A program made the position numbers and the translations under genes. 64,000 nt of DNA, from NCBI GenBank assembly GCA_947359465.1, contig OX375876.1, positions 78,886,359-78,950,358 of the forward strand, in the 5' to 3' direction. Below, in pieces: positions 3,061 to 61,215 of the stretch; positions within the stretch are counted from its first letter, which is position 1, and the number at the start of each line of letters is the position of its first letter. The notes beneath the pieces were generated by a model. That model saw nothing but the letters and a program-made list of their open reading frames with translations, was not told the DNA's origin and ran no database searches. Source of the DNA: Metellina segmentata (lineage: Eukaryota; Arthropoda; Arachnida; Araneae; Tetragnathidae).

Positions 3061-3235
3061 ACATCCTCACTCTTTTTTTTTTTATTTACTGTCGAGAAGA
3101 TGTCGCTTCTTGTCTTTATTGGATTTTGTTTATTAAGGTTCGTTCCCTTATAAGCATATACATGAATTTAGAAAAGGCTGAATCCGGAGTTTCTGATGTA
3201 TTTTTTTCCTGTCAGTTTTGGGTTTCTTTCTCGTC

Positions 3236-5975
3236 AGTCCTTTAGGTACGTTGGTTGGGTTCTTATGGCGCATGTCTTCAAGTAGCGGATATTCACATAC
3301 ATGATAACTTTTATCGCAGAGGAGATAAATACATCCAAGGCTTTTAGGTACGTTGGTTGGGTTCTTATGGCGCATGTCTTCAAGAACCGGATATTCAAAT
3401 ACATGAGAACTTTTATCGCAGAGGAGAGAAATACATCCAAGGCCTTTAGGTACGTTGGTTGAGTTCTTATTCACATGTCTTCAAGTACCGGATATTCACA
3501 TACACGAGAACTTTTATCGCAGAAGAGTAAAAAAAAAGGCCTTTAGGTACGTTGGTTGGGACCTTATGGCGCATGTCTTCAAGTAGCGGATATTCACATA
3601 CATGAGAACTTTTATCGCAGAGGAGATAAATACATCCAAGGCTTTTAGGTACGTTGGTTGGGTTCTTATGGCGCATGTCTTCAAGAACCGGATATTCACA
3701 TACACGAGAACTTTTATCGCAGAAGAGTAAAAAAAAAAGGCCTTTAGGTACGTTGGTTGGGACCTTATGGCGCATGTCTTCAAGTAACGGATATTCACAT
3801 ACATGGTAACTTTTATCGCAGAGGAGATAAATACATCCAAGGCTTTTAGGTACGTTGGTTGGGTTCTTATGGCGCATGTCTTCAAGAACCGGATATTCAA
3901 ATACATGAGAACTTTTATCGCAGAGGAGAGAAATACATCCAAGGCCTTTAGGTACGTTGGTTGAGTTCTTATTCACATGTTTTCAAGTACCGGATATTCA
4001 CATACACGAGAACTTTTATCGCAGAAGAGTAAAAAAAAAGGCCTTTAGGTACGTTGGTTGGGACCTTATGGCGCATGTCTTCAAGTAGCGGATATTCACA
4101 TACATGAGAACTTTTATCGCAGAGGAGAGAAATACATCCAAGGCCATTAGGTACGTTGGTTGGGTTCTTATGGCGCATGTCTTCAAAGCAATGGATATTC
4201 ACATACATGAGAACTGATATCGCAGAGGAAAGAAATACATCCAAGGCCTTTAAGGTACGTTGGTTGGGTTCTTATGGCGCATGTCTTCAAGTAGCGGATA
4301 TTCACATACATGAGAACTTTTATCGCAGAGGAGATAAATACATCCAAGGCTTTTAGGTACGTTGGTTGGGTTCTTATGGCGCATGTCTTCAAGAACCGGA
4401 TATTCACATACACGAGAACTTTTATCGCAGAAGAGTAAAAAAAAAAGGCCTTTAGGTACGTTGGTTGGGACCTTATGGCGCATGTCTTCAAGTACCGGAT
4501 ATTCACATACATGATAACTTTTATCGCAGAGGAGATAAATACATCCAAGGCTTTTAGGTACGTTGGTTGGGTTCTTATGGCGCATGTCTTCAAGAACCGG
4601 ATATTCAAATACATGAGAACTTTTATCGCAGAGGAGAGAAATACATCCAAGGCCTTTAGGTACGTTGGTTGAGTTCTTATTCACATGTTTTCAAGTACCG
4701 GATATTCACATACACGAGAACTTTTATCGCAGAAGAGTAAAAAAAAAGGCCTTTAGGTACGTTGGTTGGGACCTTATGGCGCATGTCTTCAAGTAGCGGA
4801 TATTCACATACATGAGAACTTTTATCGCAGAGGAGAGAAATACATCCAAGGCCATTAGGTACGTTGGTTGGGTTCTTATGGCGCATGTCTTCAAAGCAAT
4901 GGATATTCACATACATGAGAACTGATATCGCAGAGGAAAGAAATACATCCAAGGCCTTTAAGGTACGTTGGTTGGGTTCTTATGGCGCATGTCTTCAAGT
5001 AGAGGATATTCACATACATGAGAACTTTTATCGCAGAGGAGAGAAATACATCCAAGGCCATTAGGTACGTTGGTTGGGTTCTTATGGCGCATGTCTTCAA
5101 AGCAATGGATATTCACATACATGAGAACTGATATCGCAGAGGAAAGAAATACATCCAAGGCCTTTAAGGTACGTTGGTTGGGTTCTTATGGCGCATGTCT
5201 TCAAGTAGCGGATATTCACATACATGAGAACTTTTATCGCAGAGGAGATAAATACATCCAAGGCTTTTAGGTACGTTGGTTGGGTTCTTATGGCGCATGT
5301 CTTCAAGAACCGGATATTCACATACACGAGAACTTTTATCGCAGAAGAGTAAAAAAAAAGGCCTTTAGGTACGTTGGTTGGGACCTTATGGCGCATGTCT
5401 TCAAGTAACGGATATTCACATACATGATAACTTTTATCGCAGAGGAGATAAATACATCCAAGGCTTTTAGGTACGTTGGTTGGGTTCTTATGGCGCATGT
5501 CTTCAAGAACCGGATATTCAAATACATGAGAACTTTTATCGCAGAGGAGAGAAATACATCCAAGGCCTTTAGGTACGTTGGTTGAGTTCTTATTCACATG
5601 TTTTCAAGTACCGGATATTCACATACACGAGAACTTTTATCGCAGAAGAGTAAAAAAAAAGGCCTTTAGGTACGTTGGTTGGGACCTTATGGCGCATGTC
5701 TTCAAGTAGCGGATATTCACATACATGAGAACTTTTATCGCAGAGGAGAGAAATACATCCAAGGCCATTAGGTACGTTGGTTGGGTTCTTATGGCGCATG
5801 TCTTCAAAGCAATGGATATTCACATACATGAGAACTGATATCGCAGAGGAAAGAAATACATCCAAGGCCTTTAAGGTACGTTGGTTGGGTTCTTATGGCG
5901 CATGTCTTCAAGTAGCGGATATTCACATACATGAGAACTTTTATCGCAGAGGAGAAAAATACAACCAAGGCGGAA
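3236..5975. repeat. 102-bp satellite array with higher-order repeats
   Basis: About 27 tandem monomers (first at 3241, next at 3343) built around tttaggtacgttggttggg, atgtcttcaag and gaacttttatcgcaga. Monomer variants recur in order. One marker block starts (complement) at 3474, 3976, 4684 and 5597, giving higher-order units of 502, 708 and 913 bp (about 5, 7 and 9 monomers). The increments match 0, 1 and 2 copies of a ~206-bp dimer marked by aagcaatgg (4190; 4898 and 5104; again 5811 in the last partial unit). Long ORFs on both strands are by-products of the repeat. The monomer resembles part of SINE S1. Confidence 0.95.
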
Positions 5976-21052: not shown

Positions 21053-21484
21053 GGGTTTTATGGCGCTCCGCCGCAATGGCCATAGGTGACCTTTTTGTTT
21101 TTGATCTTTATCAGTCGTTGTTTTCAAGAGCCAATTTGTTTGTGTGACTTTCGGAACTGACAACTTGACGTTTCCATCCTGACTGTAGCTGTAGGCGGGT
21201 TTTATGGCGCTCCGCCGCAATGGCCATAGGTGACCTTTTTGTTTTTGATCTTTATCAGTCGTTGTTTTCAAGAGCCAATTTGTTTGTGTGACTTTCGGAA
21301 CTGACAACTGGACGTTTCCATCCTGACTGTAGCTGTAGGCGGGTTTTATGGCGCTCCGCCGCAATGGCCATAGGTGACCTTTTTGTTTTTGATCTTTATC
21401 AGTCGTTGTTTTCAAGAGCCAATTTGTTTGTGTGACTTTCGGAACTGACAACTGGACGTTTCCATCCTGACTGTAGCTGTAGGC
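21053..21484. repeat. 144-bp x3 SINE-derived tandem repeat
   Basis: Three near-identical units start at 21053, 21197 and 21341 (gggttttatggcgctccgcc). Because 144 is divisible by 3, a minus-strand frame stays open as three 48-residue repeats (ORF 21038-21451); this is not evidence for a protein. The unit start matches the S1 signature ttggttgggttttatggcgc. Confidence 0.9.
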
Positions 21485-21880
21485 GGCGCAGGTTTGATTT
21501 TTGTAACTTTTACCCTGTGTATAGTTCTCATTTCTACGCCAGTAAAATTTTCCTTCTGAGGCATGTCCATTACTTGACGTTTTCTGTCTTGTGTTTGGCC
21601 AAATATGACCCTCCGGTACAAAACGAAACCAGCCATCCTCAATGCCAAGCGAAACATTTATCTGGAATTTTAAAGAAATAACGCAATCAAATCGGCGCGA
21701 TAAATTGACGTGTCTACCCTTTATGTCGTTGTAGGCGGCGCAAGTTCGATTTCTATAATTTACCGTGTATTTCTTTCTTCTGAGCCAGTAAAATTTTCAT
21801 TGTGTGGCATGTCCATTACTTGACATTGCTCATCTTGTGCTTGGCCAAATATTGTCCTTGCGCTATAGAACTCAACCTGC
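21485..21880 (+). mobile_element. SINE S1-type pieces in plus orientation
   Basis: Two related segments (about 21486-21660 and 21731-21880) each run from a box B-like ggttcgatttct/ggtttgatttttg to ccagtaaaattttc, catgtccattacttgac and ttggccaaatat. Reverse-complemented these match the S1 body seen at 10.1 kb. Confidence 0.5.
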
Positions 21881-21884
21881 CATT

Positions 21885-22400
21885 CAATGTCTAGCGAACA
21901 TTTATCTCGAATTTTAAAGACATAACAAAATCCAGTTACGCGAGTGACGTTTCCATCCTCATTGCCTATGGGACATTTATCTCGAATTTTAAAGAGATAA
22001 CAAAATACAGTCACGCGAGTGGCGTTTCCATTCTCAATGTCTAGCGAACATTTATCTCGAATTTTAAAGAGATAACAAAATACAGTCACGCGAGTGGCGT
22101 TTCCATTCTCAATGTCTAGCGAACATTTATCTCGAATTTTAAAGAGATAACAAAATCCAGTCACGCGAGTGGCGTTTCCATTCTCAATGTCTAGCGAACA
22201 TTTATCTCGAATTTTAAAGAGATAACAAAATCCAGTCACGCGAGTGACGTTTCCATCCTCAAAGTCTAGCGAACATTTATCTCGAATTTTAAAGAGATAA
22301 CAAAATTTAGTCACGCGAATGACATTTCTATCCTTAATGTCTAACGAACATTTATATCGAATTTTACAGAGATAACAAAATTCAGTCATGCGAGTGACGT
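21885..22400. repeat. 75-bp tandem array
   Basis: About seven units carrying tctagcgaacatttatctcg, aattttaaagagataacaaa and cacgcgagtg, spaced 75 bp (for example 22114, 22189, 22264). Each has a small palindrome (tatctc...gagata). A 209-codon minus-strand ORF (21760-22389) is open only because 75 is a multiple of 3; its 25-residue repeat is not a known domain. Confidence 0.9.
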
Positions 22401-22404
22401 TTCC

Positions 22405-22640
22405 ATCCTCAATGTCATAGGCTACGCAGGTTCGATTCCTGTAATTTACCGTATATTTCTCTCTTTTGCGTCAGTAAAACTTTCCTAGTGTGGAATGTTC
22501 ATGAATGGACACTGTCTTGTGTATAGTCAAATATGGACCAACCCGCCACCCTCAATGCTTGTCGAACATTTATCTGAAATTTTAAAGAGAAAACTTAATC
22601 GAATCGCGTGTGATGCAATATCCAGTCAATATCCTTAATG
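22405..22640 (+). mobile_element. SINE S1-type piece after the 75-bp array
   Basis: gcaggttcgattcctgtaat (good box B), then gcgtcagtaaaactttcc and tgtatagtcaaatatgg: the same module as at 21486 and 21731. The 75-bp array therefore lies between copies of this module. Confidence 0.5.
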
Positions 22641-24600: not shown

Positions 24601-24646
24601 GAAAAACAAGAGAATCACTTCCTTTCAAAATAGTAGAGACGTATGC

Positions 24647-24793
24647 CAGGGCTCGAAATACCCGGGTGCACAGGTGCACATAAAAATATAATTGTGCACC
24701 TAATTTTTTCCCACTAGGTGGACTCAGTGCACCTAATTTAAAAACTTAGGTGCACAAGGTGCACCTGTATTAAAAAATCTATTTCGAGGCCTG
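24647..24793. mobile_element. hAT-like MITE, 147-bp short form
   Basis: Ends cagggctcgaaata and tatttcgaggcctg are inverted repeats. The flanks carry a perfect 8-bp target duplication acgtatgc (24639-24646 and 24794-24801), as expected for hAT insertions. The interior is built of gtgcac palindromes. A 500-bp relative with its own 8-bp TSD is at 51861-52360. Confidence 0.85.
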
Positions 24794-24801
24794 ACGTATG
24801 C

Positions 24802-25757
24802 TGTGACGAAGAAGCAACTACACTATTTAAAAATACCTGGGCGCTCAAAGGGTTAAAATTTATCTGAAAATTGTTTTCTGCCTATTTTGGTTAGGTGACA
24901 AAATTATTTTTTCCAATTATTTGATATACTTTTATTGGACGTGACGGAATTCATGAAATAAAAAGTCAAACTTGTTAAAACTTTATTTCTCCTACGGCAC
25001 AAAAAAAAATCATTTTTAAGTACGCAATGCTGGAAAAAAATGTTGCAAAAGCTAACTAGTAAAATGCGCGAACTGCAGTATTTGAAGAGACTAACCAGAT
25101 TACAAGCTGAATAAAAGTACTAAAGGTTAAATCCCTTACATAGCAACCATCAAAATAATGACTTCTATCAGCAATTAAGGGAAACGCGCAGTAAAGGAAT
25201 CGAAAAGAAAATTGCAATTGTCAGGAAAACTATTTTCAGAAAACTTGAATACCAAGTACTCGAAAACCATGAACCCTTCAGTATCTGTTTTGCCATCGTT
25301 CGTAATTGCACATGACTTCAAATAAACAAATAATCAGAGGAATGGGTGCTTTATAAACAAATAAATTTATTATTAGGTCAAAGAAATGCTCTAGAAGGAA
25401 TAACGCCGTTTGCATTAGTTATTTACGCTTTACGCCTTGGGGTAACAGTGCAGAAACCGACAGCCAGAACAGCGTTAAAAGGGATCTCCTTTACTTTCCC
25501 TACAAGACGTCTTCAATAATTCTGCAAGGATGATACTCATTAAGCAAGGAGCCCGAAATGCTACAGAGGCGCCTTCCTATCAAAAAAAGCACTAAACGGT
25601 AAGACAAAATGATCGATTTTGTGCTTTAGCTGCGAGAGCCACAGCAGTAAAATAGGACAGGGGTTTCCGAACTGCAGGTGAGGAAATGTTGACCATAAAT
25701 ATTTTCAGAGTTTTATTTCTCGGTCCACACACAAAGCCCAACAAAAGCACACAGAAA
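24802..25757. other. Unique sequence, nothing recognised
   Basis: No supported feature. Confidence 0.5.
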
Positions 25758-29077: not shown

Positions 29078-29871
29078 TCAAAAAATTCTTTGTTTGAGCT
29101 GATGTGTGAGAGCTTGCATTATCGTGGTGAAGAATGATTCGACTCTTCTGCTTTTTTCGAATTTCTCCGATGACTTCTGGCAAACAAATAGTCGTGTACC
29201 ATTCAGAATTGACCTTCCTGTGTTGCTCTAACGCCACTGTCGCCACATGATCGTTAATGCCGAAGAAACAGGCAACCATTTGCTTCGATGTGCTTCTTCC
29301 GCGAACAACTTTTGTTGGATTTGGCTCGTCTTAGAAGACACATACAGTCAATTGCTGTTTTGTTTCGGGCTCATATGAATAGATCCATGATTCGTCACCT
29401 GTGTAGATGTTATACAGCCTTTGATGTACATTGACCGTATTTTTTCAACATTTCCTTGCACCAATCGACACGAGCCTACTTTTGAGCGTTTGTCAGATTA
29501 TGCGGGATCCAACGCGACCAAATCTTTTTTACGGCTAAATGTTCATGTAATATCTTATTGATACTTGTCATACTATTGCCCAAAGATGGCTCAATCTCAC
29601 GGTATGTCACATTACGATCTTGCTTTATCAGTTCATACACAGCATCGATATTTTCTGGCACAACAACCGATTTTGAACGACCTTCACTGAATTCGTCCTG
29701 GAGCGATTGTCGACCACGATTGAATTCGTTATACCAGTTTTTTACAGTGCTGTAGGATGGTGCTTTATCGCTGTATAAAGAATTAAGTTCATCGAAGCAC
29801 TCTTGTCTTGATGATCTACGTCGAAAGTTACGAAAAATAATCGCACGAAAATGTTTACGAGTCAATTCCAT
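29078..29871 (-). pseudogene. Mariner transposase, truncated and frameshifted
   Basis: N-terminal ORF 29476-29871 starts MELTRKHFRAIIFRNFRRRS and includes YSTVKNWYNEFNRGR and LHEHLAVKKIWSRWIPHNLT, the paired HTH and WVPHxL region of mariners. Another frame gives GDESWIYSYEPETKQQ (first catalytic Asp), then a stop. ORF 29064-29279 gives ILHHDNASSHTSAQ (second Asp). The SPDLxxxD block with the third Asp is missing because the copy ends at the 188-bp repeat. A non-functional 3'-truncated copy; the 5' untranslated part probably extends toward 30070. Confidence 0.85.
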
Positions 29872-29980
29872 TTTTTTACCCGAGATGAATTTTTCAATTT
29901 ACTGTAAACAACAGAAATCACGCTAAAATGACAAAGTTCTGAGGAAATTATGGTTAAAAATATTAAATTATCGTTTGCAA

Positions 29981-40706: not shown

Positions 40707-42212
40707 CAGGGTGGTCCCGAATTCATGGTACAAACTTTAATGGTAGGTACAGGACATTGTAACAATGATTTATTGTATAGGAATGTATAGTCGCAAGTGA
40801 CGCGGTGAGGCGAAAACAGGGGAAATAACGGCCGAAAGGAAAAACAAAGATTTTATTGAAAGCGTTGTTGACAAGTGTCATGTTTACAGTAATTGTTCAA
40901 AATTGCGTCCACCAGTATCGATACATGCTTGACAGCGTCGGTGGAGCGATTGGCGTACACGTTCAAAGATGCCTGGTATTTCACGCACACCTGCAGCAGC
41001 TACAGATAAGCGAGCGACGAGATCCTCATCTGAGTCAACTGGAGTCTCATAAACAAGATGCTAAACAAGATGTCCCCATAAAAAGTAATCGAGGCTCGAT
41101 AAATCGGGAGATCGGGGTGGCCAAGGGACTGGTCCACCACGCCCAATCCATCGAGTACCAAACGTGGCATTCAGGTAATTCCGTACATCAATGCTGAAGT
41201 GTGCTGGCGCCCCATCGTGCTGAAACCACATGCGGTTACGAATGGCGATCGGAACATCATGCAGCAGTTGTGGTAACACTTCTTTCAGAAAAATAAGATA
41301 GCTTCCGCAAGTGAGCCGCGTGGGTAGTAAGTATGGGCCAATCAAAAAGTCGTTCACAATACCAGCCCACACATTAATACTGAAACGTTGTTGAAACGCA
41401 TGTCGACGCGTTGCATGTGGATTATCGGTTGCCCACACATGGGAATTGTGCGCATTAAAGACACCCTCGCGTGAAAATGTCGCTTCATCTGTAAATAGCA
41501 CATAATCTACGAAATCCGGCTGCAACGCACATTGCTGCATCACCCACAGGCAGAAGTTCACGCGGCGAGGATAATCTGCCGGATTCAATGCTTGTACTTT
41601 CTGAAAATGGAAGGGGTGTAAGCGATTTTCGTTTAACACTCTGCATACAGTCTGATGACTCACACCTACGTCACGCGCAACAGTTCTTGTGCTTGACTCG
41701 GGTCTATCAGCCACAATGTTCAAGATGCTTTCTTCCAGCCTTGGAGTGCGTACAGCTCTTACTCGACCAGCGCCATGTCTGTTGACGTCGAACGCACCTG
41801 TTTCACAAAGTTGACGATGTAACCGTTGAAAAATTCTATGATCCGGCATTCGTCGATCAGGATACTCCGCGCGATACATTCGTAACGCAGCTCTGCCGTT
41901 ACCATTTGCACGGCCGTACATGTAATGCATGTCTGCTTTTTCTGCATACGTAAAGTCACCCATCGTCTACGGCAGCACAATTGTGAATGGCGCTTTTCCC
42001 TACTGCGATGCATCATGTTCAACAGCGGCTAGACATCTACTGCCCTCTACCGGCAATGATACCAACCGATCACTCCATTTCTCTTTCCTTTTATTTCCCC
42101 TGTTTACGCCTCACCGCGTCACTTGCGACTATACATTCCTATACAATAAATCATTGTTACAATGTCCTGTACCTACCATTAAAGTTTGTACCATGAATTC
42201 GGGACCACCCTG
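40707..42212 (-). mobile_element. Tc1/mariner transposon, near-intact, 122-bp TIRs
   Basis: TIRs 40707-40828 and 42091-42212 (cagggtggtcccgaattcat start) match with a single difference (gaaaac/gtaaac). TA lies immediately outside both ends (40705-40706, 42213-42214), the expected target duplication. The 1506-bp element holds one minus-strand transposase gene. High TIR identity points to recent insertion. Confidence 0.95.
40884..41963 (-). pseudogene. Tc1/mariner transposase with one in-frame stop
   Basis: The ATG at 41961-41963 opens 300 codons starting MGDFTYAEKADMHYMYGRAN. Features in order: N-terminal DUF4817-like block, a helix-turn-helix region (STRTVARDVGVSHQTVCRVL), FTDEATFSREG (first Asp), WFQHDGAPAHF (second Asp), GRGGPVPWPPRSPDLSSLDY (third Asp in SSLD). 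By my count 42 residues lie between the second and third Asp, longer than the D34D of classical mariners. A TAG at about 41061-41063 interrupts the frame within a 12-bp direct duplication (catcttgtttag). The same frame then continues about 58 codons to TAA at 40884-40886. Apart from that stop the gene looks complete. Confidence 0.9.
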
Positions 42213-46504: not shown

Positions 46505-47515
46505 TTATTTATAAGTCTATCCATTTACTTATAGGACAGTCTAATCCTTTACCAATATGACAATTGAATCTGCATCTATTTACTAATGACAGTCTGTATC
46601 TATTTACTAATGACAGTCTGTATCCATTTACTAATGACAGTCTGTATCCATTAACTAATGACAGTCCGTATCCTTTTACTAATATGACAGTCCGTATCCA
46701 TTTAATAATATGACAGTCCGTATCCATTTACTGATATGACAGTCCGTATTCATTTACCGATATGACAGTCCGTATCCATTTACTAATATGACAGTCCGTA
46801 TCCATTTACTAATGGCAGTCTCTATCCTTTTACTAATATGACAGTCCGTATCCATTTACTAATATGACAGTCCGTATCCATTTACTAATATGACAGTCCG
46901 TATCCATTTACTAATATGACAGTCCGTATCCATTTACTAATATGACAGTCCGTATCCATTTACTGATATGACAGTCCGTATCCATTTACTGATATGACAG
47001 TCCGTATCCATTTACTGATATGACAGTCCGTATCCATTTACTAATATGACAGTCCGTATCCATTTACTGATATGACAGTCCGTATCCATTTACTGATATG
47101 ACAGTCCGTATCTATTTACTGATATGACAGTCCGTATCCATTTACTGATATGACAGTCCGTATCCATTTACTGATATGACAGTCCGTATCCATTACTGAT
47201 ATGACAGTCCGTATCCATTTACTAATATGACAGTCCGTATCCATTTACTAATGACAGTCTCTATCTTTTTACTAATATGACAGTCAGTATCCATTTACTA
47301 ATATGACAGTCGGAATCCATTTACTAATATGACAGTCCGTATCCATTTACTAATATGACAGTCGGAATCCATTTACTAATATGACAGTCGGAATCCATTT
47401 ACTAATATGACAGTCCGTATCCATTTACTAATGACAGTCTCTATCCTTTTACTAATATGACAGTCCGTATCCATTTACTAATATGACAGTCGGAATCCAT
47501 TTACTAATTACTGTC
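46505..47515. repeat. 26-bp minisatellite, about 38 units
   Basis: The unit tccatttactaatatgacag tccgta is repeated in tandem for about 1 kb. Variants include 23-bp units lacking tat (left edge), ctgatatg, and cggaatcc types clustered at the right end. A 72-codon minus-strand ORF at 46509-46727 is a by-product. Confidence 0.95.
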
Positions 47516-48947: not shown

Positions 48948-49853
48948 GTTCTTCCTAAAGCCCTGGATCCGTAGCTTAAGTAGCGACAAGCTCAATCGTC
49001 CGCCATTTTGGGGACAAACGTAACTTTCTCCCAATGTTTCTAATGGGGAAAAACGGAGTTTCGCTTCTTGAATGTAGACTTTACAAATGTTTAAAGACTA
49101 TTAAATATATCCTTAAAAAATTAAATGCATACAAATACATTCTTTTAAAGCACAAAGAACTTTCTGACTGATTTTTGAAACTTGATTTGTAAGGAAGTAA
49201 AAAATCTCAAACTCTCGATTCTTAAATGGGTTCGTGTTTTGTAGCGTGTAGCAGCCAAAATGGTAGATTTGCATGTAAATTTAGCAATAATTGCATTTCT
49301 TTAATGCTGAGTAATACATTTTTAGCATGAATAATGCATTTCTTAAACCCCAAATAATATATTTTTACCATGAATAATTAAAATTTATACTGTTTAGTCA
49401 TGATTCTTTTTTAATTTACAATTATGTGCATCAAAATTATACCAACCTTCAAGTTTCTTTAAAATTAAAGTCATACATTCTAACACTAATTAAAAATTTC
49501 TAGTTAGACATTCTCTTGTAATAGATATTTATGATACCAGTAATGAATGCAATAACAAATCATCTATGAATCTAAATAAAGCCACAGAAACTATAAGAAA
49601 ATTTTCATATTTTATTTAATAATAATAATTGAAGAAACAAGTGCAAATTTTACAAATAATAATAATCCACAATACCTAAAAGCTATTAGCAAGCAAAATA
49701 CTTTGAAATTACTTAATCTCTGAAGTGGCAATTCTCATGCCAATGCTCTTGCTAGAACATTTCTAAAATTTTCTCTGTTGAATAGCTCTATTTTTCTTTT
49801 TATTTAATAAATGCACTCGATGATTAAAAAAAATATATTTACAATTTTAAACA

Positions 49854-49997
49854 TTAAGTTACAACATTGAGGGAAATTTTTAAAATGCTTGATTTTAAGG
49901 GAGGTCGATGGCTAAAAACTGAAGGAACTGCAGTTTGTTTCAGAAGGTGCCTGCTTTCAGCCCTATGATTTTCGAATTGATCTTCTGTAAAATGTAC
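49854..49997 (-). CDS. THAP domain, second exon (C-terminal half)
   Basis: One minus-strand frame reads VHFTEDQFENHRAESRHLLK, then QTAVPSVFSHRPPL, ending at TAA 49854-49856. HF...F and the AVPxxF motif are the diagnostic C-terminal part of the THAP finger; its His completes Cx2H with the LC of the upstream exon. The stretch ttttgaaag just before it can serve as acceptor, but the available GT-AG pairings do not restore the frame exactly. The gene is probably decayed or the true junction is unusual. It is too short to appear among long ORFs. Confidence 0.7.
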   Translation of the reverse strand, partial: VHFTEDQFENHRAESRHLLKQTAVPSVFSHRPPLKSSILKISLNVVT

Positions 49998-50832
49998 CTT
50001 TCAAAAATTAAAATTACGTTAGAGGAATAAAGTAAAAACAAATCAGTATCCAATTCAGCACGAACTACGTGGTTTTCTATTTTGATATCTTATAAATCAA
50101 CACAGCTTTTTCTAAATTTTTAAAAATTAAGTAATTTGATTTAAAAATAAAAATGTCTAAAAGTCTAAAGAAAAACAAATAAATAATGTTACTATAAATT
50201 ATGAAACAATTTATTGGTGATTCATAACATACTTTAAAACATTTTAACAAAATTTAGAATTGTTTAAAAATTCAGTTTTTTTTTTCATTTTAAATATGTA
50301 AAATTGCAAAGCCATCAATTAGTTTTACTATTTTCTTTACAAACATACAAACTTTAGGATAATACATATAAACATACACATAATATACTTATTTGTCTCT
50401 TTTTAATACATAAGAATATGAATGTACTTAATTAATATGATTGTAGAACTACATATTAACAGCCTTATTGTATTACTAACTATTTCTTAAAAATATAGTA
50501 ATTTTTTGCTCCTATGTATGAAACAGCTTTTAAGCGACTTCAAAATATCTCAAAACCATATCCTACATAGTTGAATTTAAAAAAATTAATTTAGAATCTA
50601 AAGTTCATAACGAAATAAATTAAACATTAATCACTTCAGCAGACTTAAATGAAAACATTTTGGTTTTTATTTAATAACCTATCATTATTTAAATTAAATT
50701 ACATGTTTGAAACTGGTAAATATTTTGACAGGTGTGCATATTAAAAGCGATAGGTTTGTACTTGCACAACATTACTCATAAAAGCGCTGTTAAGAAACTC
50801 GATTAAAAGTAAAAAATAAATTTCAAACTTCC

Positions 50833-51018
50833 TTTACACAATTTGGTGTTTACATTTGTAATCCATTTATCCCTTCCAATCCTATGCAACCACAGTTTCC
50901 TTCGTTCTTCATTTTGTTTTTCTACTGGTAAACGATACAATTTGAATCCGGTTTTTGAGCTATTCGCACAACCAAAAGCAGAACAAGTGTGCATCTTCGA
51001 TCTCAAATCATCCATCAA
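50833..51018 (-). CDS. THAP domain, first exon (N-terminal half)
   Basis: The minus-strand frame contains MHTCSAFGCANSSKTGFKLY, then RLPVEKQNEERRKLWLHRIG, RDKW and NTKLC. This gives Cx4C zinc ligands, the LYRLP and W...W spacing and the third Cys of a C2CH THAP finger. The start is M at 51018 or, more typically for THAP proteins, M at 50994, two residues before the first Cys. The sequence at the exon end (tgtaaaggaagttt) looks like a donor AAAG|GTAAGT that has lost one T. The completing half of the finger lies about 0.83 kb downstream. Confidence 0.75.
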
Positions 51019-51234
51019 ACGATATATTAAATATTTCGAAAATTAATATGCTAATGAAACGAAAGACCGCAGACTACCATTATATGTACATTGCACTCAT
51101 TCCGAGCTAATCCCCAAAATGGCGACTGTTTACACACGTGACTCTTGACGTCCAATCAAAAGCGAAAGCGGCACGAAAGCACCGGGGAAAAGGCTGTCGC
51201 TACTTAAGTCACTATCCAGGGCTTTAGTTCTTCC

Positions 51235-51805: not shown

Positions 51806-51860
51806 GGGAATGATGGTTGGATTTTATGGTGCATGAGGTATTTGCCATATTTGGTTAAGC

Positions 51861-52360
51861 CAGGGCTCGAAATACCCTGGTGCACTGTGCACATGAAAAT
51901 ACAATGGCGCACCTAATTTTTTCCTCCTAGGTGCACGCAATGCACCTAACGTTAAAAAAAAAACCATCTCGCTCTAAAGGAACGTAAATAAAATTACTAA
52001 ACACACACTGTGCGAAAACAAAATCGCTGGGCCATAAAGGGTTTATAGAGGAGGAAGGTTTACTTGTGCCATGCCACCAGAACTTTCCGATGATCGATAC
52101 ATTTTCCAGATAGCTCTGTTGAAATGACTGTCGCGACAGCCGTGCGACGGAGAAGGGAGAATTTAGATGTTTAAATATTTTTATTTGCTATCTACTACTA
52201 ACCTATCTAAACACACCCAACTAATAAAGTAGTTTACATTGCATTAATGCTCTTATATTGGTTTTTTTTTAAATATGCTCCTAAAATATAACCTGTGCAC
52301 CTTATTTAAAACTTAGATGTACAAGGTGCACCTGTAGTAAAAAATCTATTTCGAGGCCTG
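51861..52360. mobile_element. hAT-like MITE, 500-bp long form
   Basis: Ends cagggctcgaaataccc and tatttcgaggcctg equal those of the 147-bp element at 24647. A perfect 8-bp TSD ggttaagc flanks it (51853-51860, 52361-52368). The outer ~70 bases on each side match the short form; the ~340-bp middle is extra and noncoding. Confidence 0.9.
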
Positions 52361-52456
52361 GGTTAAGCTGTACCAAACAACCTCAGATAAATGGACGTGC
52401 TTAACTGACAAGCTAAATGGACAAGAATGCTTAACTGACACAGAATGGAGAAATAC

Positions 52457-57725: not shown

Positions 57726-58524
57726 TCTATATATATAATTCTCTTACGTGGCACGCAAAAAAGACGTTATTTGTTTTCGCGTTTTGGCAACATTGTACGA
57801 TTCTTTGTTTATCCCAAAGCCTCGCGCTTCAAATTAATTTATAGCGTTATCGGATGAAATTTTATTGAAAAAAAAATGAATTTTAGTCGAGCTGTTGCAG
57901 TAAATAATAGAAATCAAAGAAAACGGAGGATCTTTTCAGGGTCATTAAAAAAAATGGTCCGTTTCGGGGCAAACTATTATAGTTCAACAAGACGCTTGCA
58001 TTACATCTTTCGACAACAAACTCAATGACAAAGCGTGGGTGGCTCGAGTGCTGGGGAAATGTACACACAACCAACATGCTGGGTTTTCAATTTCCAAATC
58101 AACGCTCACATTTCGAGTCAAAATTTGCTCAAAGTTTCCATTTGAATTCTGATTTGAGGCACTGTATATATCTTTTCTGGGTGGAGTGGTCGTTCACGGT
58201 AAGTCGTTGGTCGCCAAATCAAGATGGCGGCCGAATTCCGTAACAGCAGATAGGGTTGCCATAACAAAATGGCAGATGTGAAGAAAATACGCAAAAGGTG
58301 AAGGTTACTAAATTTGGCGACAAATCGCCTTCTTACCGTGAACGACCACTCCACCCTTTTCTGCAAACAGCAAATTTAGATTAGGAAAAAAAAATGTTTT
58401 TATTATTATTTTTATTATTATTATTTTTTTAATATCATATTTTGTAAACAATCCCTTCTGCTAGGACACATGTCTTCATTGATGCGAGCGAAGCGAACCA
58501 GTGAGGATTGCAAAGGACCCCTAG
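57726..58524 (+). mobile_element. Non-autonomous Helitron, copy H3
   Basis: Begins TC at 57726 after A (tctatatatataattctctt) and ends CTAG at 58521-58524 before T. The body matches H1 and H2, including acgcaaaaaagacgttattt and the 3' gatgcgagcgaagcgaacca region. It is lengthened by a 178-bp MITE at 58179-58356. No Rep/helicase coding. Confidence 0.85.
58179..58356. mobile_element. 178-bp MITE nested in Helitron H3
   Basis: Perfect 25-bp TIRs (gggtggagtggtcgttcacg start). A direct duplication ttttct stands on both sides (58173-58178, 58357-58362). Helitrons H1 and H2 have the uninterrupted site with a single ttttct. The 6-bp TSD does not decide the superfamily by itself. ORFs 58025-58243 and 58118-58366 are shadows. 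Confidence 0.9.
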
Positions 58525-59663: not shown

Positions 59664-61215
59664 CAGTGTGATTTTTAAAAGATGGGTAAAACTTTAAGAG
59701 GTGATAGTACACATCCAACAAACAACTTTCATCAAAGAATGCATGGTCGGAATTAAAATGCAAAGGTGCTAGAGGGCGCCGAAGTTGTTGTTGTAAAAGA
59801 GACATAAGCACACAAAGAGAGAATAAGTGACAAAAGCAAATTTAATGACGTGATTACAATAAGTGTTGAAAACAGTGACTGGCAGTGCTATACATGAGGT
59901 ACAACGGTGAAGAAAGGATTGGCGAACTTTCTGAAAAACGCCAGGCATATCGCGTACTTCCCCTGCAGCGGCCTAAAGTCTGGCGACGAGATCTTCTGCA
60001 GATTCAACGGGGGTTTCACACACACACAAGAGCCTTCAGCTGCCCCCACAAAAAGAAATCATTATATAAAAGATCTGGCGAGCGTGGTGGCCAAGCTACA
60101 GGACCACCTCGCCCAATCCATCGGTTCGGATTAGTTAAATCCAGACAGTTTCGCACCTCTTGTGCATAATGGGCTGGTGCTGCAGAATCGCATTACATTC
60201 TGGACGTGTGTCTGAACGTCCTTCAACATGTCTGGCAGCACCTGTTGCAGAAACGTGAGGTATTTTTCCCCGTCAAGGCGTTCTGGCAGAAGATAAGGTC
60301 CGAGTAGGTGGACTCCGATTATTCCTGCCCAAACATTGATAGAAAAGCACCGCTGATGAGCATGTAAATAAGTGACAAGTGGATTTACATCCGACCAAAC
60401 ATGTTGATTGTGGGTGTAAAATGCACCTTCACATGTAAATGTACATTCATCCGTGAAAAGCACTTGCCACAAAATCTGGATTTACTGTGCTCTTCTGCAG
60501 AAACCAGCGAGCGACTTCCACACGACGAAGATAATCGTTTCGAGTCAGTTCCTGAACTCGTTGAACATGGTTATGATGCAAACGTTCAGCCTTCAGTACT
60601 CGCCATGTCGTGGATTGTGATACATGTAACTGCCTAGCCACTGTTCGGGTGCTTGTACTTGGCTGATCAGCCACCATATCCAGAATGGCTTCTTCCACGA
60701 CTGACGTTCTGTCCGTCTTTGCACACCTGCACCCGACCGGAAAGCAAGAAAGGATCCCGTCTACCACAACTTTTGGTGCAGGCGGTCAAATGTTTTACGG
60801 TCGGGCAACAGCCTGTTGGGAAACCTGTCTCCGTACAATCGTTGAGTCTCTGAGCCATTGCCATTTGCAAGTCCGTAGATAAAATGCATATCAGCCTTTT
60901 CCTTATTGGTGAATGGCAATATCTTCCGATATATTCCTACCGCGATTGACAGTTGCACACTCGGATCAGCGGCTTTTATGTATTAATCGAGGCAAAAATT
61001 TGCATGCGAGTTCTTTTTCCCCCATATCATATTTGTATGCTATTACTGTCGTTCTTCTAGTAATAACTCTCAACAAGAATGGAGCTCTAACATTTGCAAG
61101 GATCAAGTTTTCAAATGCGCCAGCACCTTAGCGTTTTGTTTTTCAGACCATGCATTCTTTTTGTCTGTGTACTGTTACCTCTTAAAGTTTTGCCCATATT
61201 TTATGAATCACCCTG
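59664..61215 (-). mobile_element. Tc1/mariner transposon, older relative of 40.7 kb copy
   Basis: Ends cagtgtgattttta and (complement) cagggtgattcata are inverted and continue with aaaactttaagaggt; about 43 of the first 50 positions agree. TA flanks both ends (59662-59663, 61216-61217). Its dead transposase gene resembles that at 40884-41963. Confidence 0.9.
59960..60958 (-). pseudogene. Tc1/mariner transposase, multiple frameshifts
   Basis: N-terminal frame (60761-60958): FTNKEKADMHFIYGLANGNG. Middle frame (60447-60767): STRTVARQLHVSQSTTWRVL and NDYLRRVEVARWFLQ. Then a return to the first frame (60131-60472): LFTDECTFTCEGAFYTHNQH with the first Asp. After a further shift GRGGPVAWPPRSPDL is readable near 60085-60130. 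The HDGAPAH block of the second Asp is damaged (only APAH remains in an alternate frame) and the start Met is lost. Same family as the 41-kb gene, but long inactive. Confidence 0.85.

Follow-up and report, generated by a model that had tools for sequence, protein, structure and literature searches.

A very probable internally deleted, non-autonomous member of the P superfamily with THAP exons in the spider Metellina segmentata

Inverted ends, a short direct duplication and two halves of a THAP domain, found side by side in spider DNA, raise the question of what kind of element they belong to and whether its THAP exons still encode a working product. The locus lies in a window of 64,000 nucleotides (the whole stretch of DNA analysed; Metellina segmentata, Tetragnathidae, contig OX375876.1), for which a preliminary description made from the letters alone had proposed a P element-like transposon with a split THAP finger and seemingly no transposase, either a THAP-only element or a decaying autonomous one. 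The reading preferred here, with a probability of roughly 0.93, is that the locus derives from a P-superfamily DNA transposon by internal deletion and is non-autonomous; as an element type, a non-autonomous P-superfamily element is ordinary.

The element with its inverted ends, the GTTCTTCC duplication and the subterminal inverted motifs could be confirmed to the base (Table 1). When the left terminal inverted repeat (TIR) is aligned to the reverse complement of the right one, 29 of 33 columns are identical, with 13 and 14 perfect pairs at the two sides, separated by three mismatches and a gap of 1 nt. The subterminal repeat CGCCATTTTGGGGA is unchanged in 24 of the 27 genome copies that have the left site and in 24 of the 26 that have the right site; it contains TTTGGGGA and presumably fits the fly P THAP site TNNGGGNW, a fit which alone carries little weight because octamers of this type are so common in the window (137, with six in the element). 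A 13-nt perfect inverted end combined with a perfect 8-bp direct repeat less than 6 kb apart is found twice in the window, in the element and in the 176-bp element of Table 1, while 30 Markov-1 shuffles of the window gave no pair with a 13-nt inverted end and an 8-bp duplication within 6 kb; chance inverted repeats were rejected as a reading of the element. Exact matches to the end motifs TAAAGCCCTGGAT and CTTAAGTAGCGACA are confined in the window to the two element ends; with up to three mismatches, TAAAGCCCTGGAT matches 31 times versus 16 expected, 19 of the 31 falling in the 102-bp satellite, and CTTAAGTAGCGACA four times versus 4.5 expected. BLAST found no second element copy in the window, and searches of the window with Rfam at gathering scores and with ARAGORN gave no matches.

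Table 1. Coordinates of the element, its parts and neighbouring repeats in the window
Feature	Position	Strand	Remarks
P-like element	48956-51226		2,271 bp; inverted ends and 8-bp target-site duplication (TSD)
Left TSD GTTCTTCC	48948-48955	no strand	perfect 8 bp
Right TSD GTTCTTCC	51227-51234	no strand	perfect 8 bp
Left TIR, 33 nt, gene 3' end	48956-48988	+	same end in other copies
Right TIR, 32 nt, gene 5' end	51195-51226	-	pairs with left TIR
Subterminal inverted repeat CGCCATTTTGGGGA, left copy	49001-49014	+	14 bp perfect, 12 nt inside TIR
Subterminal inverted repeat CGCCATTTTGGGGA, right copy	51111-51124	-	70 nt inside TIR
THAP exon 1 (MHTCSAFGC...NTKLCK)	50833-50994	-	Pfam THAP
THAP exon 2, part common to long copies (VHFTEDQF...SHRPPLK)	49889-49997	-	Pfam and alignment
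Relic intron 1	49998-50832	-	AG acceptor kept at 49998-49999
First two bases of relic intron	50831-50832	-	GG; GT in two long copies
Internal-deletion junction, element 933/934	49888-49889	no strand	2 nt common to both sides
3' part of long type kept after deletion	48956-49888	-	alignment to long copies
About 74 bp upstream of THAP start, element 2061-2134	51016-51089	no strand	missing in both long copies
Short element, ends CAGGGCTCGAAATA / ATTTCGAGGCCTG	51861-52360		8-bp duplication GGTTAAGC at 51853-51860 and 52361-52368
176-bp element	58180-58355		about 24-nt inverted ends (by eye), 8-bp direct repeat
Transposase-like frame, 301 aa, open	41061-41966	-	N-terminal DUF4817 helix-turn-helix
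Fragment with Mos1-type HTH_48 domain	29476-29898	-	Pfam
Tandem array, 102-bp unit	3239-5971		
Tandem array, 144-bp unit	21053-21486		
Tandem array, 75-bp unit	21884-22416		
Tandem array, 26-bp unit, 38.6 copies	46518-47508		ends 1.4 kb from element

The window holds other repeats as well. The short element at 51861-52360, which looks hAT-like, has a shorter related copy at 24642-24804. Broken frames at 60131-60785 resemble by eye the open 301-aa frame, with no Pfam match at 60134-60481, and a frame that runs through the 75-bp array gives a Pfam match to DUF285 (1.7e-7), perhaps due only to the array repeats.

Searching the genome (1.665 Gb, 173 contigs) with the whole element gave at least 53 matching pieces, grouped by hand into at least 40 places including the window copy (40 of 76 candidates scored), and the 23 other longest copies are 89-99% identical to the window element. 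Equally, the left 120 bp recur with 97-100% identity at no fewer than 40 places (40 of 59 candidates scored), at least eight of which, including the window copy, reach 100% among the matches listed. Thirty loci were fetched, the window copy being L001; outside this set lie the whole-element places C4:104.7M, C9:121.6M, C2:101.9M and C2:23.6M, ten places from the left-end search only and four close transposase places on contig C11. Both ends are present, within the match or at most two bases from it, in 22 of the 30 loci (L004, L022 and L025-L030, whose matches are truncated on one side or on both, were left out of the TSD count). Identical 8-mers stand directly beside the match in 18 of these 22, a perfect ATCAAAAC adjoins the altered end bases of L008 on both sides, and the TSDs of L011, L014 and L021 have one mismatch each. 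As the flanks of L019, L020 and L026 are 99% alike, the 18 perfect TSDs represent 17 independent insertions; L002 is a 99.9% twin of the window copy. The joined flanks of L015 match uninterrupted at 96-97% at all 40 scored places (588 candidates), 38 matches spanning all 240 bases and the other two 239 and 238; these are paralogous empty sites, which fix the boundaries for the L015 copy. L011 and L015 occupy one site of a multi-copy repeat in opposite orientations. The copies in the genome thus share their boundaries, and the differing ones that the preliminary description had named as speaking against its reading were not seen.

A six-frame Pfam scan of the element gave THAP exon 1 only, with no transposase and no hAT family, as had been supposed for the rest of the element, and the transposase was found in longer relatives. 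P0005, a 753-aa Larinioides protein retrieved with the THAP query, begins with the THAP exon-2 half, which P-type domains follow, and with P0005 at least 67 matches were obtained in the genome (60 of 700 candidates scored). The best match among those listed, C5:851605-853446, falls within a stop-free frame of 798 aa at locus L031, a long copy of 4.47 kb comprising THAP exon 1, THAP exon 2 and the open transposase frame, with the boundaries of exons 2 and 3 read from splice signals. The exon-3 frame matches the Drosophila P transposase 6p5a (E 3.5e-34, 121.5 bits), and D230, D303 and E531 of the fly enzyme (residue numbers from the accessible part of PMC7776569) align to D, D and E as counted by eye. 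Pfam recognizes in this frame RNaseH_N (8e-28) and the GTP-binding domain GBD (4.4e-6), both above cut-off, RNaseH_C (3.9e-4) below its cut-off and no hAT family; THAP is found in exon 1 (E 7.8e-7) and in exon 2 (E 0.018 alone). The open frame of L031 is a putative P-type transposase. The flanks of L031 differ, with no matching 8-bp duplication (ACTGCACC / ACACTAGC); a second long copy, L032, has a perfect TSD GCCAACAC and a frame broken by stops and frame shifts. Together, copies that agree in their ends and differ in their TSDs, empty sites and a long copy with a P-type transposase bear out the P element-like transposon first proposed; of the two domains for which a profile search had been suggested, THAP is present in the joined product of the window copy and the transposase in L031, not in the window copy itself.

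The THAP domain does lie in two exons: the Pfam E-value is 1.4e-6 for the exon-1 frame alone, 0.023 (below the Pfam cut-off) for the exon-2 frame alone and 4.3e-15 for the joined frame of 101 aa, with the domain at residues 4-82. Past the deletion junction, the exon-2 frame runs on for about a dozen codons to the stop at 49854-49856. Among solved structures, human THAP1 and THAP2 come closest in sequence, and the fly P THAP domain matches weakly (E 0.16). In L031 and L032, exon 1 ends with LCE followed by GTAAGT, exon 2 resumes after AG with VHF, and the predicted proteins P0001 (Araneus), P0004 (Larinioides) and P0006 (Oedothorax) read C-E-V-H-F across the intron. In the window copy, no GT-AG or GC-AG pair tried yields an in-frame C..HF product and the donor reads GG; the intron is therefore a relic. 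By comparison with these relatives, the predicted intron is real by ancestry and broken in the window copy, so that its boundaries as given in the preliminary description agree with the long copies and its splicing does not hold.

The L031 frame lies between two pieces of the window element, 933-2271 corresponding to L031 2464-1199 and 1-934 to 5665-4749, with identities of 93-94% for element positions 933-2060 and 2135-2271 and 91% for 1-934. Accordingly, apart from the stretch of about 74 bp near the 5' end without counterpart in the two long copies, the window copy equals the long type after loss of about 2.28 kb, which start in the middle of exon 2 and extend past the catalytic domains, and dozens of places hold the 2.27-kb product together with 8-bp duplications of its own. 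The 5' end of both long copies is also different (TAAAGCCCTATATAGTG, TAAACCCCTATATAGTG), reading CCCTATATAGTG where short copies read CCCTGGATAGTG, and the short families carry the 74-bp stretch plus the GGATAGTG end. Therefore the deletion arose in another, related long copy, and L031 represents the type and not the actual copy from which the deletion family came; the suggested search for full-length copies with the same ends did uncover a long type, though with this other 5' end in both representatives. A second deletion class, in which long-type position 240 is joined to about 3196-3208 with both end regions kept, was seen in 8 of 8 loci (L033-L036 from partial whole-element matches, L037-L040 as four of 14 additional left-end places). 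These loci carry the extra 74 bp where visible, are 1.59-1.62 kb in size (five measured: L034, L035, L037, L038 and L040) and have a perfect TSD in three of five measured cases and one mismatch in two; L033 carries an insertion.

Transposase from long copies would recognize the inverted ends and the subterminal sites common to the short copies and would mobilize the deleted ones in trans through a cut-and-paste mechanism. Gain in copy number would come from repair using the sister or homologous template, as in fly P biology. The THAP donor would have been lost already in, or early in, the amplifying lineage, which would make the THAP exons passengers. The initial choice between a THAP-only and a decaying autonomous element is thus best answered in between, by a deleted derivative that has spread as its own 2.27-kb family, in which the THAP exons seem to travel as passengers with the ancestral splice unusable.

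On the other hand, deleted copies might be kept because they encode a 101-aa (if joined) THAP-only protein that represses transposition, with a precedent in fly KP, a repressor of 207 aa that an internally shortened P element encodes (in the accessible part of PMC7776569). The THAP domain of the joined frame and the window copy with its twin L002, which both retain the two THAP exons open, are in line with this possibility. However, the donor bases in the 30 loci are GG in 22 and AG in five, with the site missing in three, and the ancestral GT, present in both long copies, is gone in 27 of 27 short copies with the site; with no alternative splice pair restoring C..HF in the window, the deleted copy is not predicted to yield a truncated THAP protein. 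Furthermore, a stop lies within exon 1 in 19 of the 26 loci with most of this exon (the count leaves out L025, L028, L029 and L030, where much or all of exon 1 is missing in the match). Exon 1 is open over its 162 nt in L001, L002, L008 and L011 and open with deletions or altered stretches in L012, L013 and L027; a stop or shift affects exon 2 in L008, L011, L013 and L027, a stop in the case of L008 and L011. For codon positions 1, 2 and 3, departures from the majority base amount to 61/2491, 66/2492 and 39/2489 (2.45, 2.65 and 1.57%) versus 540/23843 (2.26%) in the intron, and private changes, counted over these same numbers of sites, to 17, 21 and 13 (0.68, 0.84 and 0.52%) versus 183 (0.77%), so that the THAP exons of the short copies show no third-position excess in what is a coarse test with few changes. 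With the donor lost, stops and no codon-position constraint, a working THAP-only gene was rejected and the repressor is very improbable; the THAP exons look like passengers with no sign of constraint.

The assignment to the P superfamily draws on the 8-bp TSDs counted above (18 perfect beside the match in 22 two-ended of 30 loci), the TIRs (13-31 bp in known members) with subterminal inverted repeats, the N-terminal THAP domain in the joined window frame and the L031 exons, and the D-D-E RNase H transposase with GTP-binding insertion found in L031 and absent from the window copy. Target sites were analysed with the 17 independent perfect TSDs on the element's strand, a set to which neither L032 nor the second deletion class contributed; the first base is G in 16 and the last base C in 13. 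Compared to the fly P insertion palindrome core GTCCGGAC / GGCCAGAC, taken from the accessible part of PMC10299278, the TSDs have on average 4.06 of 8 matches to GTCCGGAC versus 1.74 for flank octamers, and 4.35 to GGCCAGAC versus 2.29. For either motif, none of 5000 draws reached the TSD score, and the target sites resemble in their letters the fly P palindrome, with the preference expected for it. A hAT-superfamily element with a captured THAP exon would equally fit an 8-bp TSD, and T at position 2 (9 of 17) and A at position 7 (10 of 17) would fit the hAT preference for these bases, yet the domains encoded in the long copy are of P type, nothing but THAP came out of the six-frame element scan and the TSDs fit the P motifs; as no hAT family appeared when the element and the long-copy frame were scanned with Pfam and P-type domains did instead, hAT membership was rejected and retains a negligible probability. 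That a host THAP gene or pseudogene lies by chance between inverted repeats, which the short THAP protein records in spiders and ticks (P0001, P0002) might recall, is just as hard to credit and was rejected, contradicted by the empty sites and by copies scattered over the genome that share the ends and have TSDs of their own, so that the unique host gene considered at the outset did not materialize.

Among known systems (the papers are cited for their accessible parts), the P-superfamily element of the spider has in common with the fly P element and its deleted forms such as KP the 8-bp TSD, TIRs of about 31 bp, subterminal inverted repeats, a THAP and RNase H transposase with GTP-binding insertion and internally deleted copies, 0.5-2.8 kb in the fly (PMC7776569). 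It differs in the size of the long type (4.47 kb versus 2.9 kb for fly P) and in having an intron that interrupts the THAP domain after the third Cys and before the His, and, unlike in fly KP, the splice donor of the THAP exons is gone from the deleted family, leaving no KP-like product by that splice. Zebrafish Pdre2/THAP9 shares the THAP9-type transposase, 8-bp TSD, TIRs with subterminal repeats and internally deleted relatives, whereas its 13-bp TIR CATACCTGTCAAC and 12-bp subterminal repeat TGTTTAAACCAA are unlike those of the spider element (PMC10983969). The P subfamilies and P-MITEs of Anopheles gambiae equally have 27-31-bp TIRs, an 8-bp TSD and short and full families (full elements 4.2-7.5 kb) in one genome, but the central part of the MITEs is unrelated to P, while in the spider all of the short element but the roughly 74 bp can be aligned to the long type (PMC1562414).

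The closest proteins come from spiders and are uncharacterized, known from protein records only: P0004, P0005 and P0007 (Larinioides sclopetarius), P0006 (Oedothorax gibbosus) and P0001 and P0003 (Araneus ventricosus), with transposases 62-89% identical to the L031 frame and THAP pieces 60-81% identical to those of the window. The L031 transposase is 89% identical over 376 aa to P0006 of the linyphiid O. gibbosus, 70% over 623 aa to P0005 and 62% to P0007 of the araneid L. sclopetarius, versus 27-44% to tick, mosquito, fish and unnamed proteins; the closer linyphiid than araneid match may reflect horizontal transfer or old paralogous lineages. The genome also has, on many contigs, further P-type transposase matches at 25-42% identity, several in frames of 500-916 aa with no stops in the match, and several distinct putative P lineages coexist in it.

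No described spider P element was found in the titles and abstract starts of the open-licence literature, which, as this literature is open-licence only, is weak evidence of absence, and the accessible part of an arthropod survey (PMC6562904) names the P element only for Drosophila. The locus and its relatives assemble most of a P-element system in a spider, with an open-frame long copy, two deletion classes, ends and target sites, and make P-element target preference and end architecture comparable across a very large evolutionary distance. It is a tentative and rather doubtful proposition that the family is still or was very recently mobile, with long P copies driving in trans two deletion families of independent origin and the preference for palindromic targets around GTCCGGAC kept between fly and spider. 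If the family was recently mobile and the target preference kept, the 89% versus 70% identity would reflect horizontal spread among spiders.
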